Assembly (NCBI RefSeq): GCF_002135335.1
Contig: NZ_NEGC01000001.1
Span: 310,001 to 374,000, forward strand
Direction of reading: 5' to 3'
Origin: Acinetobacter sp. ANC 4470
Lineage (GTDB): Bacteria; Pseudomonadota; Gammaproteobacteria; Pseudomonadales; Moraxellaceae
Length of the DNA: 64,000 nucleotides
The position numbers were made by a program, and so were the translations under genes. How positions within the stretch are numbered: position 1 is the first letter of the stretch; each line of letters opens with the position of its first letter. This document shows positions 9,023-39,406 of the stretch, piece after piece. The notes beneath the pieces are model-generated. The model saw only the letters and a list, made by a program, of their open reading frames with translations, searched no databases and was not told the DNA's origin.

Positions 9023-9506
9023 TTCTTTCCTATAATTTTATTTAACCATTTCAAATTTTTAATAAGACTAAGCCTTTTCAGGTTAAACGATGTCGCTTTG
9101 AAATGGGCTATTTAGAATTAATTAACCGTTAATGATTTTGTATTTAACCTAAAAGCCACGTCATTTAAGCTAAATTTAATCTTCTACTTTAGAATAAGCC
9201 CAATTCTACATAAACATCATAAATATGAATACCACTCAACTTTGGCTCGGTATTCTCCTTAGTTCTATAGGTTTCACCTCATTCTTTATTGCAAGATTCA
9301 TATAACAACAAGTTTGAATCCTACTCATCATGACTTTTTAAATAAGAAGAATTCTTTAAGCAGAAATTAGCGTTATTCTCTATCTTCAGAAAAGCCCTAA
9401 AAAATATATTTTTTATAAAAAGAATCGCCCTTATTTTGTAAAAATAAGGGCGATTCTTTCAATTAAATAAGATCAATCATGAGCTTAAATAGCTCACTTT
9501 TTCAAA
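9023..9506. other. intergenic gap; terminator and a doubtful small ORF
   Basis: No convincing gene is present. An open frame at 9225-9305 on the plus strand would encode a 26-residue hydrophobic peptide (MNTTQLWLGILLSSIGF and so on, ending ARFI), shaped like a single-span small membrane protein, but it has no visible ribosome binding site. The terminator at 9421-9457 occupies the right end. Confidence 0.4.
9421..9457 (-). terminator. strong rho-independent terminator
   Basis: A perfect 17-bp inverted repeat (AGAATCGCCCTTATTTT and its complement) has a 3-base loop and is followed on the minus strand by TTTT. It ends the DUF2505-like gene whose stop is at 9507. Confidence 0.85.
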
Positions 9507-21497: not shown

Positions 21498-23108
21498 GTG
21501 AGCACAAACAAAACGAATTACACCACTGAAGTGGCTATCTTGGGCGCAGGTCCTGTTGGTTTAACGATTGCGAATTATTTAAGCAAGCAAGGTATACAAG
21601 TCACTATTATTGAGCAGTTGGATAGTTTAATTGACTACCCACGCGCGATTGGCATTGATGATGAATCTTTACGTACTATTCAATCCCTCGGTTTAGTGGA
21701 TCAAGTATTACCACATACCACACCAAACCATGCAATGCGTTTCTTAACCCCTAAAGGTCGCTGTTTCGCAGATATTCAGCCGCTTACTCGTGAATTTGGT
21801 TTCTCACGTCGTAATGCCTTTATTCAGCCTCAAGTCGACAATGTTTTACTACAAGGTTTAAAACAATACGAAACAACTAATGTATTATTTTCACGTCAGC
21901 TTAATGAATTTAGCCAAAATGCAAATGGCGTAACACTAAAACTTCAAGACAAAAATCAAAAAGAAGAGACTATTCATGCCCAATATTTAATTGCCTGTGA
22001 TGGTGGTAACTCCATTGTACGTCGTAACTTAAATATTGCTTTTGATGGTAAAACTGCACCAAACCAATGGATCGTCATTGATATTGAAAATGATCCTTTA
22101 GCAACACCACATATTTACCTTTGTTGTGACCCTGTACGTCCATATGTATCTGCGGCTTTACCACACGGTATTCGTCGTTTCGAATTTATGGTCATGCCAG
22201 GTGAAACACAAGAAGAGCTCAGCAAACCAGAAAATATTGCAAAATTATTGTCTAAAGTTTTACCAAATGCTGAAAACATTGAAGTGATTCGTCAACGTGT
22301 CTATACCCACAATGCACGTATTGCCGATAAGTTCCGCGTAGACCGTATTTTACTGGCCGGTGATGCTGCACACATTATGCCTGTATGGCAAGGTCAAGGT
22401 TATAATAGTGGTATGCGAGATGCCTTTAACTTAGCGTGGAAAGTTGCGCTGGTGGTACAAGGTAAAGCAACTCCTGATTTATTGGATTCATACCAAGTTG
22501 AACGTAAAGACCATGCCAAAGCGATGATTGATCTTTCTGTAATGGCAGGTCACGTACTTGCACCACCTAAAAAATGGCAAGGTTTTGTCCGTGATGGTAT
22601 TGCTTATGCACTGAATTACATCAAACCGATTAAGCAATATTTGCTTGAAATGCGTTTTAAACCTATGCCTAAATATAACGATGGCGCATTGCTGGCAGAT
22701 GGTAAAAAAGAATCGCCTATTGGTAAAATGTTCATCCAGCCACATGTAAAACTTGAGTCTGGTGAAAAAGTTTTACTTGATGACATCATTGGCAATGACT
22801 TTGCAATTATCGCTTGGGGTGTCGACCCTCAATGGGGAATTAATGATACCAATATGCAAGTGTGGAAAAATTTAGGGGTTAAATTCATTCAAATTATTCC
22901 TGAAGTTCAATTTGGCAATGAAAACCGTAAAAAGTTTGAAGGCGTGATTACTTTAGGCGATATTGGTACTGATATTCGTACATGGTTTGGTAAAACATCT
23001 GAATCTGTTGTTATTTTACGTCCTGACCGTTTTGTAGCAGCGCTTGCGATTCCACAAACTTTAGATCAGATCAGCCAACAATTGTTCAAAAAATTACATG
23101 TAAAATAA
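21498..23108 (+). CDS. mhpA: 3-(3-hydroxyphenyl)propionate hydroxylase-like FAD monooxygenase
   Basis: The 536-residue flavoprotein closely resembles MhpA, which hydroxylates 3-(3-hydroxyphenyl)propionate using NADH and O2. Landmarks are the FAD loop [19 protein letters not shown], the conserved [20 protein letters not shown] and [18 protein letters not shown], the [19 protein letters not shown] segment, and the second FAD motif [20 protein letters not shown]. The C-terminal thioredoxin-like domain is present. Start is a GTG at 21498. Mhp operon partners (mhpB, C, D) are not adjacent, so the substrate may differ. Confidence 0.88.
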
Positions 23109-30880: not shown

Positions 30881-32155
30881 TTAGAAGCTATATTTAGCCA
30901 TTAAACCTACACGGTTGTCTTTATATGACGCTCCAGCAAATGTATCACGCTTACCATTGATATATTCAACACCTAAGTCAATTGGCGCAACTGGTGTATA
31001 GATAAAGTTAATCCATGCTTGTTGAACTTTTTCATTAGCCGTGGTATTGAGCATTGCATAATCAGTATCATCGGCAGCAAAACTTGCACCATATGCTAAA
31101 GTAGAACGTAATTTAGGCGAAAACTTATAGGTCGCACCCACTTGAACCGCATTAAATTCATTTTGTTCAATACTGTTATTCGTTGTATTCACAACATACG
31201 CGGAATTACTGCCGTATAAATAGTTGCTATTACCCACGACATGAGAGGCATCAGCAGAGATTTTTAATGGTGCAGATACTTGATAGTTCACACCTGCTGC
31301 AATACCCCAGCCAGTTTCATTATCATCAGCAGCAGTCGATTTATAATTTTCAACCAATGCACGTGCAGAAACAGAACCTTTACCTTCAGCAAAGCCTTGG
31401 GTTAATTTTGCAGTCAAATTCGGTAAACTATATTTGATTCCTGTACCTGAGCTATCGCCTTCTTCAGCTGAAATAAATAATTGAGTTGCAGGCGCAAGTT
31501 TCAGACCATAACGAACTTGAGGAACACGTGCTGTACCACCGCCCACGTTCGTACCAAAATCAATCATTTCAGGCGCATGATTCGACAAGAAGTTCGACGT
31601 TGTTTGACCAAATAACCAATCGTTATAAGTTAAATAAGCATGACGAATACGAAGTGCATCATTGGTTCCAGCAAAGTCGACTTCAACCTTACCACCGACT
31701 TTTCCACTTTCAACAGGTGTACTGAAATCTAGACCTAAACGTGTCGTTTTTCCGGTAGCGCGTAATTTATCTGAAGTTTTTCCGTCACTTGTGTGAACAG
31801 CGTTAAAGTCGTTATCCGCACCTTCAATAATATAGTTCGCATCACCACGAACAAAACCATATAAGTTTACACTTGCGCCAGCTTTAGTTTTAAATCCTGT
31901 TAACGGCAATTCAGGTTTAGCTACAGGTGCTGCAAGTTGTACAGGCTGAGCTTTTACTTGCTCAATTTGAGTTTGCTGCTGTTGTTGAACTTGATGTTGT
32001 TGTTGAATTAAAGATTTTAATGCTTCAACTTCATTACGTAATTGTTGAATTTGTTCTTGCTCAGCTTTACCAGCATGCGCTGTACCTACCATTACAGCTG
32101 TCACTGCCAATACTAGGCTTTTAGCCATAAATTTACCGTTGAGTAAGCGACTCAT
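30881..32155 (-). CDS. dcaP: DcaP-like outer-membrane porin
   Basis: The 424-residue protein forms a DcaP-type trimeric porin. ATG at 32155 (MSRLLNGKFMAK) is chosen because GGAG sits 8 bases before it; an upstream TTG-like frame adds 12 unlikely residues. A signal peptide ends near THA, then a Gln-rich coiled coil (about 30-70) and a barrel from about 85 to the C-terminal Phe (YSF). The conserved FKTKAGASVNLYGFVRGDAN segment near 90 and RIRHAYLTYNDWLFGQTTSN near 175 match DcaP. DcaP imports dicarboxylates and beta-lactamase inhibitors in A. baumannii. Confidence 0.92.
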   Translation of the reverse strand: MSRLLNGKFMAKSLVLAVTAVMVGTAHAGKAEQEQIQQLRNEVEALKSLIQQQHQVQQQQQTQIEQVKAQPVQLAAPVAKPELPLTGFKTKAGASVNLYGFVRGDANYIIEGADNDFNAVHTSDGKTSDKLRATGKTTRLGLDFSTPVESGKVGGKVEVDFAGTNDALRIRHAYLTYNDWLFGQTTSNFLSNHAPEMIDFGTNVGGGTARVPQVRYGLKLAPATQLFISAEEGDSSGTGIKYSLPNLTAKLTQGFAEGKGSVSARALVENYKSTAADDNETGWGIAAGVNYQVSAPLKISADASHVVGNSNYLYGSNSAYVVNTTNNSIEQNEFNAVQVGATYKFSPKLRSTLAYGASFAADDTDYAMLNTTANEKVQQAWINFIYTPVAPIDLGVEYINGKRDTFAGASYKDNRVGLMAKYSF

Positions 32156-32544
32156 TCTAATCTCCAATTTAACTATCTCGCGTCCGTGCATTAATGACCC
32201 CTAAAGACTCAACAAATTAATGAAAAACAAATATCCATCCTTGTCAAAAACTTCAAAAATCATTGCATTTTCTGCTATTAATACTGTGAAAAAATTTAAA
32301 ATATTATATACAGTGCAATATATGTAAACCGTATGTAAGCATCAATCTATCAAGTTCTATCCTTTATTAAAATCAATTTTCTCAAGCAACAATTTAAAAA
32401 CTATCTTATTTTTAGATACTTATTTCAAAATAATGAATACATTCTTAAACTTAGCTATTATTCACATAAAGTATTACGTACAAATATTCGACTAATGTAT
32501 ATAGTACAGTTCAACTAAAAAAAGGCATTTAAAAAGGAATTTTC
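32156..32544. other. divergent intergenic gap between dcaP and the nitroreductase gene
   Basis: The gap is very AT-rich and must hold both divergent promoters. No strong operator, terminator or small gene was recognised. The nitroreductase gene has an AAGGAA ribosome binding site 7 bases before its ATG. Confidence 0.4.
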
Positions 32545-33252
32545 ATGAATTTGCAACAAGTTCACCATGTAGATGATGCCATTACCTCACGCCATTCCGT
32601 CCGCGCTTTTTTAAATCAAACGGTTGATGCTCAAATCATCAAAGATATTTTAGCCGTAGCTAGCCGAGCGCCATCAGGAACCAACACCCAACCTTGGAAG
32701 GTCTATGTGGTAACTGGGAAAAAGCGTGATGAAATGGTGGATCGCGTCTGTAAAGCACAAATCGAACTGTTTACACAGCCTGAACTTGCAAACCAATATC
32801 AAGAAACCTTTGCTTATTACCCAGAAAATTGGATTGCACCATTCATTGATCGTCGCCGTGAAAATGGCTGGGGTTTATATGGTTTATTAAATATCCAAAA
32901 AGGTGAAAAAGAAAAAATGGCGCGTCAACAACTGCGCAATTACCAATTATTCGATGCACCCGTTGCTTTGTATTTTACCGTCAATAAAGCCATGGGCATT
33001 GGTTCTAAAATGGATATTGCCATGATGATTCAAAATGTCATGATCGCAGCAAAAGCACGTGGTCTCGATACCTGTCCTCAAGCAGCTTGGAATCATTTTC
33101 ATCCTATCGTACTGGATGTACTGGGTGCACCAGAGGATGAAGAATTGGTGTGTACCATTGCTTTAGGCTATGCCGATGCAGATGATATCGTGAATACTTT
33201 TATTACCCCGCGTATTGCAGTTGAAGAATTTACTGTTTTCTTAGATCAATAA
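32545..33252 (+). CDS. Nitroreductase-family FMN oxidoreductase
   Basis: The 235-residue protein belongs to the FMN-dependent nitroreductase fold. ITSRHSVRAFLNQTVDAQII near the start carries the FMN-phosphate Arg contacts, ASRAPSGTNTQPWKVYVV is the conserved FMN-binding loop, and GLDTCPQAAWNHFHPIV is the second half of the cofactor site. It reduces nitroaromatics or quinones with NAD(P)H, though the physiological substrate is unknown. An AAGGAA site lies before the ATG. Confidence 0.9.
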   Translation: MNLQQVHHVDDAITSRHSVRAFLNQTVDAQIIKDILAVASRAPSGTNTQPWKVYVVTGKKRDEMVDRVCKAQIELFTQPELANQYQETFAYYPENWIAPFIDRRRENGWGLYGLLNIQKGEKEKMARQQLRNYQLFDAPVALYFTVNKAMGIGSKMDIAMMIQNVMIAAKARGLDTCPQAAWNHFHPIVLDVLGAPEDEELVCTIALGYADADDIVNTFITPRIAVEEFTVFLDQ

Positions 33253-33270
33253 CTCAATTCATTTCAGCTA

Positions 33271-33302
33271 AAAAAGAGACCTATCATGAAGGTCTCTTTT
33301 TT
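33271..33302 (+). terminator. rho-independent terminator of the nitroreductase gene
   Basis: AAAAAGAGACC and GGTCTCTTTTTT frame a 7-base loop, about 20 bases after the stop codon at 33250-33252. Confidence 0.8.
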
Positions 33303-33384
33303 ATTCATTCACGGCGGAGTCTTGCTTTTTTAAATAAAATACTGGGAGCTCATCTGTTACTTTGGATAAGCCCAAATGAAAAGC

Positions 33385-33479
33385 CTCAAAATATATTTTG
33401 AGTTCGCAAGAAAGGCATCTTGCGCTGCAAAATAAAGCCGTGCTTTATTTATTGCTCAAGTTGCGGATGACGTTTCCGC
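33385..33479. repeat. cluster of four consecutive hairpins
   Basis: Four inverted repeats follow each other without overlap: CTCAAAATATATTTTGAG (33385-33402, perfect palindrome), CGCAAG/CTTGCG (33405-33424), AAATAAAG/CTTTATTT (33430-33450) and GCGGA/TCCGC (33463-33479). They sit between convergent genes. A minus-strand frame of 47 codons ending at 33301 also crosses the segment (CSARCLSCELK, LSKVTDELPVFYLKKQ). It could be a dispersed repeat or a structured RNA. Confidence 0.5.
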
Positions 33480-33577
33480 GTATCGAATAACATCATGAAT
33501 TTAAAATAAAAAAATAGTCCAGTTTTTAACCGACTAGCATTACCTCTGTGCAAGTCTCTTTTAAATTTATTCACATA

Positions 33578-34795
33578 TTAGCGATGAGTGCTTTGATGCT
33601 GTACAGGTGGTTTTAATTTCGTAATCGCAACCAGTGTAATCACCACAAAAATCAGCATCAGAATACCCATATTCAAAAGTGCATTCCAAGCAAGGAAATT
33701 TAAAATCACCCCACCGAGTAAACCGCAAGCAAACTGCATACTGCCCATAATAGCGCTGGCTGTTCCTGCTCGTGCACCTTGCTCAGACATTGCTAAAGCC
33801 ATGGCATTCGGACCAGTAAAACCTATGCCAGAAACAGCCAAAAACATGCCGATAAAGATAATCCACAGTGGACTATGACTAAACAAACCCGTAATGAATA
33901 AGACGGATGCACCAACAAGCTGTAGCATACCGCCCATTTTCAAACGACTCAGTACTGAAAACTTATATGCAAGTTTCTTATTAAGTGTCGATAACAACAT
34001 GATGCCAAAAGCATTTAGACCAAAAGCATAAGCGAATTGTTGTTGATTTAAGCCATAGTCATCCATGAGTACTGAAGCTGATGAGCTGATATAGCAAAAC
34101 AAAATACCACCAGAGAAACAGCCTGCAAGCATGGGCCATCTAAAACTATGATCTTTAAAAATAACTGCGTATAAATTTAAAATTTGATTGATATTTAACT
34201 TTAAACGGCGTTCAGGCGCTAAACTTTCTTTAAAGAAAAAATGTACACACAATAAACAGATCACACCCATTAAGGTCAAAAAGACAAAAACGGCATGCCA
34301 AGAAAAAAACTTAAGTACGATTGCACCAAGAGTAGGTGCAAGAATCGGTGCAATCCCCATCACAATCATCATACTTGCAAAAGCTTGAGCAGAAGCCTGC
34401 ATATCTAAACGATCACGAATTGCAGCGCGAGCAATCACCACCCCAACGCAGCCACCAACCGCTTGTAAAATACGTGCTGCAATTAAACTCCACTCATTCG
34501 TTGCAAAAACACATAATAGGCTAGCCACAATATAAAGGATTAACCCAAAATACAGTGGTGCTTTACGTCCAATTCGGTCGCTCAGCGGACCATAAACCAA
34601 TTGCCCCAATGCTAAACCTAAAAAATATGCAGGTAAGGTATTGGCAACCATTTGTGTACTTACGCCAAAATCCTGTGCCATTTGAGGCAACGCGGGTAAG
34701 TACATATCTATAGAAAGTGGGCCTAATGATGTCAGTAACGCCAATAACAAAATCCAATTTGTCGAATATTGTTGTCCTTGGTTTTTTTCAAACAT
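33578..34795 (-). CDS. Bcr/CflA-family multidrug MFS transporter
   Basis: The 405-residue protein has 12 predicted helices. It shows the Bcr/CflA signature LLTSLGPLSIDMYLPALPQM (about 17-36) in helix 1 and the loop motif QLVYGPLSDRIGRKAPLYFG (about 61-80). It exports drugs such as bicyclomycin or chloramphenicol in related bacteria; its own substrate is unknown. It is convergent with the nitroreductase gene. Confidence 0.9.
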   Translation of the reverse strand: MFEKNQGQQYSTNWILLLALLTSLGPLSIDMYLPALPQMAQDFGVSTQMVANTLPAYFLGLALGQLVYGPLSDRIGRKAPLYFGLILYIVASLLCVFATNEWSLIAARILQAVGGCVGVVIARAAIRDRLDMQASAQAFASMMIVMGIAPILAPTLGAIVLKFFSWHAVFVFLTLMGVICLLCVHFFFKESLAPERRLKLNINQILNLYAVIFKDHSFRWPMLAGCFSGGILFCYISSSASVLMDDYGLNQQQFAYAFGLNAFGIMLLSTLNKKLAYKFSVLSRLKMGGMLQLVGASVLFITGLFSHSPLWIIFIGMFLAVSGIGFTGPNAMALAMSEQGARAGTASAIMGSMQFACGLLGGVILNFLAWNALLNMGILMLIFVVITLVAITKLKPPVQHQSTHR

Positions 34796-34940
34796 AATGC
34801 TGTTTCGACGTAAAATACATGTAATTCTAATTAGTCTACAATCAACTTCATATTTTTTATACGATATTAAGGTGATTTTTTTACATTAATATGATTATTT
34901 TTATTATCATTAATCTCATATATTGATAAGGATCTCCCCC

Positions 34941-37097
34941 TTGAATCGTTGGCTAGCTGAATTACGCAAAGCGACCTACAACACCACGTTTTTGTATACG
35001 ATTCGGATGATTATTATCTTTGGAGGTACAGCATTTGTACCCTATTTTTTAGGTAATCAAATCTTAACTATTCCGCTTTCATTGGCTGTGGTCGCTGCTG
35101 GCTTAGGTGATATTGACGACCGTTTTTCAGTCAGAATTATGAATATGATCTATACCTATGTTGGTTTTTTCATTACCGCGACTGCTGTTCAATTGTTATC
35201 ACCTTATCCTATTGTATTTGCTAGCGGATTAATCGTTGCGTGTATTGGTTGGATTTTACTGGGCTCACTAGGAAGACGCTATGCATCCATTTCATATGGC
35301 TGCTTGGTCGTAACTGTATACGCGATGTTAGGTGTAGATCTATTTGAACCATGGTATGTGCAACCGACTTTATTGGTATGTGGCGCAGCTTGGTATGGGT
35401 TAATTTCAACGATCAGCTTTTTACTCTTTCCGATTCGTCAAGTTCAAGACCAACTATCACACTGTTACTCATCCTTAGGTGATTTTCTCTTTGCAAAATC
35501 GAATCTATTTGATGTGGATATGACATCTCCCAGTTATCAACGCAGTATGGTTAGCTTGTCATTGGAAAATAGCAATTTGATTGGCATGTTTAATGAAATG
35601 CGCACCACACTGTTAACCCGTTTAAAGGGAGATCGTGGGCGCCACGATACTCGTCGTAGTCTACAATATTATTTTGTCGCACAAGATATCCATGAACGTG
35701 CAGATTCCTCACATTTTGATTATCTAAAACTTGCCAAAATTTTTGAACATAGCGATATTATGTTTCGTTTCCAACGGATTTTTTCTTTACAAGGTAAAGC
35801 CTGTAAAGACTTAAGTGATAGTATTCTTCATGGGACTTACTATCATCATAGCTCTGATTTTGAACAAAGCTTTCAAAACTTGCGAATTTCACTTGAAAAA
35901 TTACGCAATACTCAACTGTACGACCTAGTCTGGATCAATGCGTTATGGTCTCTGTTTCAAAATCTAAAAGCCATTGATGCTCAACTCAATAATATAGAAA
36001 CTGAACAACATATTAAGCATGAAAAAGACAAACATATAGATCATCAACTCAATGATGATGATCTAAAAGGTTGGTCGGATATTGTCATCCGTGTAAAACA
36101 AAATTTAACCCCTGAGTCCATACTGTTCCGACATGCGATACGCTTATCGACCGTACTTTTTGTCGGTTATATCTTAGTTGAAATTACCGATATACCTTCA
36201 GGTTTTTGGGTATTACTCACTTCGGTATTTGTATGTTTACCTAATTTCAATGCCACGAAAAGACGTTTACATTTACGTATATTAGGAACATTTATTGGCG
36301 TTATTGTCGGTTATGCCATCCTGTATTTTATTCCATCTCTGGTCGGTCAATTATTAATTTTAACCGTCAGTGGCGCTTTGTTTCTGGTTATACGTAGCAA
36401 ACAATATGCTCAAGCGACTGCTTTCATTACAATTTTAGCGCTCATTAATTTTAATTTCGATGGTGTTGGTTATGAAGCAGCACTGCCACGTTTATTTGAT
36501 ACGATTGTAGGCTGTGTTTTAGCATGGTTGGGGGTAACTTTTATTTTCCCTGATTGGAAATTTCGTAACCTACCTCGGAGTATTCAACGGTCATTACAAT
36601 CTCAATGTGAATATCTTTCTGAAGTAATTAAGCAATACCGAGAAGGACGTAACAACAGCTTAAATTATCGCTTAGTGCGCCGCGCTGCGAATAATACCGA
36701 TGCTGAAATTGCTTCACTTATTTCAACATTAGAAACTGAACCGAATTATGATCCAACACATAAAGCTTTAGCATTTGAATTTTTATGTTTGAATCATACT
36801 TTCTTAAGTTATATTGCAGCTTTAGGTGCACATCGGGAACAGATAGAAGACGCTGAAATTCTTAATCTACTTGATCGTACATTTGAAGATATTCAAGCCG
36901 TATTATTACGCGATGAAACACCAGATGAAACAGCACTCAATGTATTGAAAACAGTTCAGCAACGCTTAGCTCAATCTGAAGAAAACTCATCTAAATTACT
37001 TATTATTGTTCAACAAATTTCGCTGATGTTTAGTATTTTGCAACAATTCAACACATTAAAACAGACCTTAAGTGATGAGCAAAATCAAACAGCATAA
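34941..37097 (+). CDS. yccS: YccS/YhfK-family inner-membrane protein, copy 1
   Basis: The 718-residue membrane protein belongs to the FUSC/YccS family. The N-terminal six-helix half (about 15-165) is followed by a long cytoplasmic insert (about 180-390, with RLKGDRGRHDTRRSLQYYFV and the HERADS motif), a second membrane half (about 395-515) and a C-terminal helical domain. The start is a TTG at 34941 with AAGGA 9 bases before it, mirrored by the neighbouring copy. Transport function is suspected but not established. It is the first of two adjacent paralogues. Confidence 0.88.
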   Translation: MNRWLAELRKATYNTTFLYTIRMIIIFGGTAFVPYFLGNQILTIPLSLAVVAAGLGDIDDRFSVRIMNMIYTYVGFFITATAVQLLSPYPIVFASGLIVACIGWILLGSLGRRYASISYGCLVVTVYAMLGVDLFEPWYVQPTLLVCGAAWYGLISTISFLLFPIRQVQDQLSHCYSSLGDFLFAKSNLFDVDMTSPSYQRSMVSLSLENSNLIGMFNEMRTTLLTRLKGDRGRHDTRRSLQYYFVAQDIHERADSSHFDYLKLAKIFEHSDIMFRFQRIFSLQGKACKDLSDSILHGTYYHHSSDFEQSFQNLRISLEKLRNTQLYDLVWINALWSLFQNLKAIDAQLNNIETEQHIKHEKDKHIDHQLNDDDLKGWSDIVIRVKQNLTPESILFRHAIRLSTVLFVGYILVEITDIPSGFWVLLTSVFVCLPNFNATKRRLHLRILGTFIGVIVGYAILYFIPSLVGQLLILTVSGALFLVIRSKQYAQATAFITILALINFNFDGVGYEAALPRLFDTIVGCVLAWLGVTFIFPDWKFRNLPRSIQRSLQSQCEYLSEVIKQYREGRNNSLNYRLVRRAANNTDAEIASLISTLETEPNYDPTHKALAFEFLCLNHTFLSYIAALGAHREQIEDAEILNLLDRTFEDIQAVLLRDETPDETALNVLKTVQQRLAQSEENSSKLLIIVQQISLMFSILQQFNTLKQTLSDEQNQTA

Positions 37098-37231
37098 GAC
37101 TTATTTCAACTTCTATGCGTAACCATGCAGACAAGCATATTACGCCATAGTATTATTTCTAAGAATTGAGAGTGAAAAATCACATAATTTAACTTCATGA
37201 TGCATAGATCACTTTGTGGTAAGGACATAAT

Positions 37232-39406
37232 TTGAAATCTTGGCTCACACGTATTAAACAAGCGACCTATAACACCACCTTTATGTATAACCTGCGCATG
37301 GTCATTGCGTTTTCAGGCACCGCCTTTGTTCCTTATTTTATGGGATACCAACTTGCAACCATTCCGCTCACCCTTGGGGTCGTTGCTGCTGGTTTAAGTG
37401 ATATTGATGACCGTTTTTCGGTCCGTATCATGAACCTGATTTATACCTATATTGGCTTTTTTATTACTGCTGCATCTGTTTATTTCTTATTTCCTTACCC
37501 GATTTTATTTGCTTTAGGCTTGATTATTTCCTGTGTTGGCTGGATCTTACTCGGCTCACTGGGTCGTCGTTATGCCACCATTTCCTATGGCTGCTTAGTC
37601 ATTTCCGTATATTCGATGTTAGGTGTTGGATTATTTGATCATTGGTATACTCAACCCCTACTTTTGGTGGCTGGCGCAGCATGGTATGGTCTAATTTCAA
37701 CCATTAGTTTTTTATTGTTCCCCGTTCGCCAAGTCCAAGACAAGTTATCGCAGTGTTATTCATCCTTAGGTGATTTTCTCTTTGCAAAATCGAACCTGTT
37801 TGATGTGGATATGACACCCAGCAGCTATCAACAAAGTATGATTGAACTGTCCTTAGAAAATGGCAAATTAGTTGGCATTTTTAATGAAATGAAAACCGCA
37901 CTACTGACCCGTTTGAAAGGTGACCGCGGACAAAAAGATACCCGTCGTAGCTTACAATATTATTTTGTTGCCCAAGATATTCACGAGCGTGCCGATTCAG
38001 CGCATATTGATTACCAGAAACTGGTCAAGATTTTTGAACACAGTGATATTTTATTTCGCTTCCAACGAATTTTATTTATTCAGGCCAAAGCCTGTAAAGA
38101 TTTAAGCCACAGTATTTTGCATCGTGAAACCTATCAACACAACAAACGCTTTAAACATGCTTTTGCCAATTTAAAGCTGTCTTTAGAAAAGTTACGTACA
38201 GAACAACAATATGATCAAGTCTGGGTCAATGCGCTATTTTCGCTCTATCAAAATTTAAAGGCGATTGATGCTCAACTGCGTAATGTAGAAACTGAACGTC
38301 ATATTAAATTTGATAAAAGCAAACATATTGAAAACCAACTCAAAGATGATGACTTAAAAGGCTGGGATGATATTGTTATCCGAATCAAACAGCATTTAAC
38401 CCCAGAATCGATACTGTTTCGCCACGCGATACGGGTCTCTATTGTCTTACTAATTGGTTATGTTTTTGTCCAAGTGAGCAATATTGAATATGGTTATTGG
38501 ATTTTGCTGACCGCACTTTTTGTCAGCCAACCCAACTTTAATGCCACTAAACGTCGTTTACGTTTACGCATTGTCGGTACTTTGGTGGGTATTCTTTTAG
38601 GTTATGCCATTTTGTACTTTATCCCTTCCATTGAGGGGCAATTACTACTGCTCATTTTAAGTGGTGTGCTTTTTTTTGAATTACGCAGTAAACAATATGC
38701 TCAAGCCACTGCTTTTATTACTATCCTTGCACTGATTAACTTTAACCTCGATGGTGTAGGTTTTGCAGCAGCATTACCTCGTATGATAGATACATTAATT
38801 GGTTGTGCATTGGCATGGTTTGGAGTCAGTTTTATTTTTCCCGACTGGAAATTCCGTCGTCTGTCACGCACCATTAATCGCTCCCTCACTGCACAATGTG
38901 ACTATTTAGCAGAAGTGACTGAACAATATAAACATGGGCGTAATAATGGTTTAAAATATCGTGTGGTACGTCGTGCTGCACATAATAATGATGCCGAAGT
39001 CGCATCACTCATTTCAACCTTAGCCACAGAACCTGATTTTGATCCAACTCAAAAAAGCTTAGCTTTTGAATTTTTATGTTTGAATCATACCCTATTAAGC
39101 TATATTGCAGCTTTAGGTGCACATCGTGAAAAGATAGAAGATCCAGAAGTGTTAACGCTTTTAGATCTCGCTTTAGAAAATATCCAAGGATCTTTATTAA
39201 AAGATGAAGTAGCTAACCTCAATGCGCAAAATATGTTGGATACAATACGTCAACGCTTAACCGCAAATAGCAATGATGATCAGAAAGCCCTGATTGTGTT
39301 ACAACAATTATCTTTAATGTTAAGCATCCTGAATCAACTTAGCCGTTTGAAGCAAAGCTTGAGTCATGACCGTGATGATAACGCCACCGAATTAGCCTCA
39401 TTATAA
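37232..39406 (+). CDS. yccS: YccS/YhfK-family inner-membrane protein, copy 2
   Basis: The 724-residue paralogue is largely identical in sequence and domain order to the gene 130 bases upstream, including the RLKGDRGQKDTRRSLQYYFV and HERADS motifs and an equal TTG start preceded by AAGGACATAAT. The copies differ mainly in the C-terminal 30 residues and scattered sites. Several stretches are nearly identical in nucleotides, such as TCATCCTTAGGTGATTTTCT. The tandem arrangement suggests duplication followed by partial conversion. Confidence 0.88.
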   Translation: MKSWLTRIKQATYNTTFMYNLRMVIAFSGTAFVPYFMGYQLATIPLTLGVVAAGLSDIDDRFSVRIMNLIYTYIGFFITAASVYFLFPYPILFALGLIISCVGWILLGSLGRRYATISYGCLVISVYSMLGVGLFDHWYTQPLLLVAGAAWYGLISTISFLLFPVRQVQDKLSQCYSSLGDFLFAKSNLFDVDMTPSSYQQSMIELSLENGKLVGIFNEMKTALLTRLKGDRGQKDTRRSLQYYFVAQDIHERADSAHIDYQKLVKIFEHSDILFRFQRILFIQAKACKDLSHSILHRETYQHNKRFKHAFANLKLSLEKLRTEQQYDQVWVNALFSLYQNLKAIDAQLRNVETERHIKFDKSKHIENQLKDDDLKGWDDIVIRIKQHLTPESILFRHAIRVSIVLLIGYVFVQVSNIEYGYWILLTALFVSQPNFNATKRRLRLRIVGTLVGILLGYAILYFIPSIEGQLLLLILSGVLFFELRSKQYAQATAFITILALINFNLDGVGFAAALPRMIDTLIGCALAWFGVSFIFPDWKFRRLSRTINRSLTAQCDYLAEVTEQYKHGRNNGLKYRVVRRAAHNNDAEVASLISTLATEPDFDPTQKSLAFEFLCLNHTLLSYIAALGAHREKIEDPEVLTLLDLALENIQGSLLKDEVANLNAQNMLDTIRQRLTANSNDDQKALIVLQQLSLMLSILNQLSRLKQSLSHDRDDNATELASL

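Follow-up and report, generated by a model that had tools for sequence, protein, structure and literature searches.

In Acinetobacter sp. ANC 4470, a nitroreductase-family gene and an MFS transporter gene converge on a region where four hairpins follow one another within 95 bases, which raises the question of what kind of element they represent. The window analysed here is the whole stretch of 64,000 nucleotides that holds this region. The initial annotation was right in describing four perfect stems between convergent genes: four non-overlapping perfect stems lie within 33385-33479 (Table 1), they add up to 30 pairs against a shuffle mean of 5.6, and a total of at least 30 was reached in 0 of 2,000 dinucleotide-preserving shuffles. 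When 95-base tiles were scored every 50 bases across the window, one of 1,279, at 9401, reached 30 pairs; the tiles over the four-hairpin site score just 21, because the tile frame is not aligned with the hairpins, and those at 23051, 2651, 41151 and 8051 score 21-23. Dense hairpins are rare in this window, though not unique; another dense cluster, at 9396-9460, consists of AAAAAATATATTTTTT and, after it, a long terminator-like stem. The full feature exceeds the four hairpins, and extends from about 33269 to 33562.

Table 1. Features of the intergenic region and its neighbouring genes (positions in the window; a dot marks features without strand).
Feature	Position	Strand	Description
Nitroreductase-family gene	32545-33252	+	PF00881; left neighbour
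Host bidirectional terminator TAAAAAAGAGACCT..AGGTCTCTTTTTTA	33269-33303	.	14-bp perfect inverted repeat; -17.2 kcal/mol; intact where the left end should be
Putative MITE remnant (family A)	33298-33542	+	Repeat matches start at ~33298 and end at ~33542; left boundary fuzzy within T run
Hairpin 1	33385-33402	.	9 bp, loop 0; palindrome CTCAAAATATATTTTGAG
Hairpin 2	33405-33424	.	7 bp, loop 6; CGCAAGA..TCTTGCG
Scar of 93-bp internal deletion (approximate)	33418-33425	.	Between two CTTGCG repeats; full copy L019 holds 93 bases there
Hairpin 3	33430-33450	.	9 bp, loop 3; AAATAAAGC..GCTTTATTT
Hairpin 4	33463-33479	.	5 bp, loop 7; GCGGATGACGTTTCCGC; within conserved right subterminal region of the element
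Right-end hairpin and T run	33508-33536	-	-5.2 kcal/mol; faces transcripts from the MFS gene
Right TIR TAATGCTAGTCGGTTAAA	33525-33542	-	2 mismatches to TAATGCYRRTCAGTTAAG
Second, eroded terminator loop and right arm CCTCTGTGCAAGTCTCTTTT	33543-33562	+	Target duplication and following bases; aligns with right half of the L123 empty site
MFS transporter gene	33578-34795	-	PF07690; convergent right neighbour

The suspicion that the hairpins belong to a dispersed repeat family was borne out. Used as a query, region 33300-33560 gives 48 matches in its own genome, which amount to about 24 places of this family (family A) by our own count, with pieces merged and a second family set aside; the 18-bp palindrome of hairpin 1 is found at 18 exact places in the same genome, against 0 for the reversed control. 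The region has matches in 28 of 58 genomes, its own included in the search, and a typed consensus matches 115 of 175 Acinetobacter genomes (own included, E <= 1e-5), many of these matches being partial or confined to shared modules. The dispersed element is ~300-400 bp long, and the four hairpins form the core of a single eroded copy of it. The minus-strand frame that had been drawn across them fared less well; FYLKKQDSAVNE is indeed part of a 24-aa ORF, but CSARCLSCELK occurs in no listed ORF of at least 20 aa, and the frame is unsupported. A coding frame in the element was rejected, given that only ORFs of 22-41 aa are found there; a further ORF of 53 aa overlaps its right edge and starts outside.

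Complete copies have 18-bp inverted ends, TAATGCTGATCAGTTAAG and TAATGCCAGTCAGTTAAG (the latter read in reverse complement at the right end), and short direct repeats flank them. Both ends, with 0-6 summed mismatches, are present in 22 of the 26 loci tried; L018, with chance ends (12 mismatches), and L029, L031 and L035, without two ends, were left out. The 22 copies measure 301-400 bp, and no transposase gene is present in the element. A target duplication (up to 3 mismatches), usually of 9-13 bp, accompanies 17 of the 22 copies and is absent in five; in a set from other species, of which 19 of 20 were used and L170, without ends, was dropped, it is present in 14 of 19 and absent in five. Being short, free of transposase, bounded by TIRs and target duplications, and having ends in common with an autonomous IS, the element is on these sequence features classified as a MITE of the IS4 subgroup. 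Its interior varies: the palindrome of hairpin 1 is common to family A and to a repeat family B whose ends differ, many copies in other species have a different palindrome in the same position, and hairpin 1 is apparently an exchangeable module; hairpin 3 is present in some copies only, CGAAC replacing it in others, which read CCTCGAACAGTT. Family B is a second dispersed repeat of ~314-353 bp, at loci L040-L047 of the same genome, that shares the palindrome module and ends near TAGATAACTTGCATAAATC and GACTTATGAAAGAAGTCTA. MITEAba12, also a non-autonomous, IS-derived element of Acinetobacter, differs in its length of 111-114 bp, its ends GGCTTTGTTGCACAAA and GGCTTTGTTGCATAAA, its 9-bp duplications and its lack of a predicted Rho-independent terminator, as given in the accessible part of its description (PMC6382973), and identity between the two was rejected because the ends differ.

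The ends are shared with a presumed parent IS. The right 35 bp of the element recur with 97-100% identity on four Acinetobacter plasmids, and are 100% identical to an IS end on NZ_CP024012. Two of the four places lie under an annotated IS4-family transposase gene; the IS in those two plasmids is ~1.39 kb long, has the 35 bp as its right end and encodes a 434-aa IS4-family transposase, a protein that matches Nterm_IS4 and DDE_Tnp_1 and also passes the NCBIfam IS4 model. The IS at L119 carries the left TIR of the MITE type, and the transposase at L058 has a YREK-type motif and is 36% identical to that of E. coli IS4. The IS4 subgroup is marked by a DDE transposase with a YREK signature and, in the main text of De Palmenaer et al. 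(2008, PMC2266710), by direct repeats of 10-13 bp and ends of the -AATR type. The parent IS has a DDE transposase with the YREK signature, and direct repeats and ends of this kind; among 42 IS copies the duplications are of 10-13 bp in 39 and of 14 bp in one, and the ends are TAATG in 41 and CAATG in the remaining one (L121). E. coli IS4 resembles the element studied in its TIR, which is TAATGCCAGTCAGTTAAG on one side and departs from it by one mismatch on the other, and in its duplication, which measures 12 bp in K-12; the element differs from it in its size of 300-400 bp and in having no transposase. Transposase matches were obtained in 50 of 175 Acinetobacter genomes (E <= 0.001), many of them weak or partial; the Acinetobacter genome G152 has the IS, with 100% identity, at the coordinates that it occupies on the plasmid of Acinetobacter sp. 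LoGeW2-3. A search of the own genome gave 0 matches at E <= 0.001, so that mobilisation by an IS4-type transposase has to be deduced from the ends of the element alone; beyond the genus, a sample of 369 genomes from the class gave 0 with a match to the transposase of the parent IS at E <= 1e-30, in a set without positive control that is weakly informative.

The IS sample comprised 40 copies from 12 genomes, picked before their flanks were seen, and two plasmid copies; exact target duplications of 10-14 bp are present in 40 of the 42. A two-way terminator hairpin, preceded by an A tract and followed by a T tract, lies at the insertion centre in 38 of the 42 copies, and the same score is reached at 28 of 12,776 positions of the window and, for non-coding positions, at 77 of 9,670, both controls being drawn from the 64-kb window and not from the IS-bearing genomes. 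This score admits stems that run beyond the A or T tract; an earlier score that missed such hairpins gave 31 of 42. The remaining four copies are terminator-like by eye. At two of these four, L114 and L118, halves of two different terminators flank the IS and there is no duplication; both copies perhaps derive from recombination between IS copies. For MITE copies a terminator is present at 13 of 22 sites, 11 of them two-way (control for one- or two-way hairpins, 299 of 9,670), and absent by the same test at nine; in other species the count is 10 of 19 with and nine without. The sites of the MITEs are less clear than those of the ISs, perhaps because the MITE copies are older. MITE copies tend to lie inside intrinsic terminators, and the presumed parent IS nearly always does so; the hairpin gives a classical IS group a precise target that is defined by structure.

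It could be argued that this location reflects survival between convergent genes, with insertions in genes being lost by selection, and not a choice of target by the transposase; 13 of 17 own-genome MITE copies are indeed flanked on both sides by the 3' end of an open frame of at least 80 codons. We regard this as unlikely, because intergenic survival alone would not centre the IS duplications on a hairpin (38 of 42, against 77 of 9,670 non-coding positions). A choice of target can be taken one step further, to the proposal that IS4-subgroup transposases recognise the intrinsic-terminator hairpin itself (A-tract, palindrome and T-tract), matching inward terminators having evolved in both IS and MITE; to this we would give an even chance. 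The form recognised might be a DNA cruciform, or the hairpin where RNA polymerase has paused. If the proposal is true, the transposon system would be one that parasitises transcription stop sites, leaving its host unharmed, and that has remodelled numerous Acinetobacter genes at their 3' ends. The target consensus of IS4 is AAA-N20-TTT, and an insertion of IS4 is known in the pheST attenuator. Eleven loci of E. coli IS4 represent four distinct site sequences, three of which look like terminators; the one beside eno and the one between tdk and adhE are among these three. In K-12 the site has a duplication and no convincing terminator. As there are just four distinct site sequences, no general claim is made for E. 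coli.

The second feature common to MITE and IS is an inward-facing hairpin followed by a T tract near each end. By a mechanical score it is present in 16 of the 22 MITEs at the left end, in 20 at the right and in 16 at both, the left-end score of L020 resting on a hairpin other than the usual one; in the ISs it is found in 42 of 42 at the left (first 110 bases) and 41 of 42 at the right, and in the MITEs of other species in 14 of 19 and 16 of 19, respectively. As a control, 161 of 2,000 random 80-mers from the 64-kb window reached this score. The end hairpins mostly stay paired as their sequences change: for the two end helices in 21 copies from several species, 92.5% of cells are paired and two-sided changes occur in 8 of 26 pairs. 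Pairing, two-sided changes and covariation score were each as high in 0 of 500 shuffles, and further pair types in 5 of 500, in a control that ignores the relatedness of the copies, which inflates the test, and with a structure drawn from the same sequences. The ends of MITE and IS probably replace the terminator that they split, restoring a stop for both neighbours; such insertions may be tolerated because the element mends the signal that it disrupts.

The copy in the window has to be read against these complete copies. It is identical to the full copy L019 at 223 of 244 aligned positions, and its left TIR and left-end terminator are missing, its own duplication being only partly readable. 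The hairpin near its right end appears to be the decayed inward terminator of complete copies. The 93-base deletion made hairpins 2 and 3 contiguous, and the back-to-back order is probably accidental; the position of the scar is approximate because the two CTTGCG repeats are identical. In a close relative (G013), whose nitroreductase gene is 92% identical, the same two genes are 60 bp apart with a single terminator between them (L123), versus 325 bp in the window, and both flanks of the element align to this empty site, with the whole terminator (33269-33303) on the left and its loop and right arm (33543-33562) on the right. Among the best 30 matches there were 29 loci from other genomes, and in 11 of them the same convergent gene pair was judged by eye to enclose a matching terminator; in the other 18 no such terminator was seen, most having 19-26 bp between the genes, four having no downstream MFS gene and two lying in a different neighbourhood. 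A terminator scanner run on 33200-33620 found none, presumably because the T tract is part of the stem.

Taken as a whole, the feature is very probably a decayed, non-autonomous MITE of the IS4 subgroup, moved by an IS4-type transposase into an intrinsic terminator and ending in inward hairpins. Under this explanation a transposase encoded elsewhere in the genus would recognise the 18-bp ends and place the element within an intrinsic-terminator hairpin; the terminator would be split, and ~9-13 bp of its loop and inner stem would be duplicated. The hairpin and T tract near each end would then still stop transcripts arriving from either convergent gene, and this replaced stop would make the insertion nearly harmless while shielding the element from transcription. 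In the copy of the window the left end would later have been lost, the host terminator being restored with that loss, and a deletion between the two CTTGCG repeats would have brought hairpins 2 and 3 together. The remark in the initial annotation that the structure is denser than terminators need holds in spirit, the locus being a terminator with an insertion, but the hairpins are no array of terminators. The explanation would extend to a class of hairpin-rich intergenic repeats of Acinetobacter that could otherwise be mistaken for small RNAs.

Dispersed, intergenic and palindromic copies, mostly between convergent genes, would also be expected of a REP- or BIME-like repeat that the host retains because it stabilises mRNA or binds protein, with no transposon involved, and a palindrome common to two repeat families with unlike ends agrees with it. 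REP and BIME consist of short palindromic units and lack TIRs and target duplications. The element has both, and these features together with the empty site of the relative indicate transposition, and at the right it ends exactly as an IS4-family IS does; we consider a REP- or BIME-like nature quite improbable. A structured non-coding RNA or riboregulator, which had also been suggested for this region, is very improbable, for although the stems are dense and sub-threshold Rfam matches to AbsR25 and AaHKsRNA82 occur in 32000-35000, five related loci (four of family A, one of family B) gave 0 Rfam matches at the gathering cut-off, 33200-33620 holds no promoter-like site, the internal hairpins are present or absent from copy to copy, and the consensus fold of 12 copies (a few rows with imprecise ends), across which the palindrome is invariant, has an unfavourable covariation term of +1.12 and two-sided changes in 7 of 62 pairs.

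The reading as an IS4-subgroup MITE finds partial parallels in known systems. For some elements of this subgroup, strong insertion specificity residing in the target arms is described in the main text of De Palmenaer et al. (2008, PMC2266710), where the word "terminator" is absent; here the target is a terminator hairpin. ISRm22, an IS4-family element, is counted among the REP-targeting ISs with nine copies in palindromic repeats; it differs in that its target is REP and that neither a MITE nor replacement terminators are described in the accessible part of that article (PMC1525189). The small repeats SPRITE, BOX and RUP of Streptococcus pneumoniae, the first with terminator-like sequences, belong to another host and are likened to the element by description only (accessible part of PMC10969869). 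In the accessible literature on terminator-targeting ISs and MITEs, mostly outside subscription journals, a terminator hairpin was not found stated as target, and neither this MITE family nor inward replacement terminators turned up. The target preference of IS4 is thus partly known, and the terminator hairpin as target, the MITE family and the inward terminators are apparently new.

Two minor observations can be added. The E. coli locus between tdk and adhE holds, in five sampled records (L178-L182), an IS4 remnant of 1,145 bp with a frameshifted transposase inside the terminator there, and L178 has the right flank of the hairpin in inverted orientation. In the window, two adjoining ORFs at 34923-39406, of 724 aa each, are alike by eye and are likely a tandem duplication.
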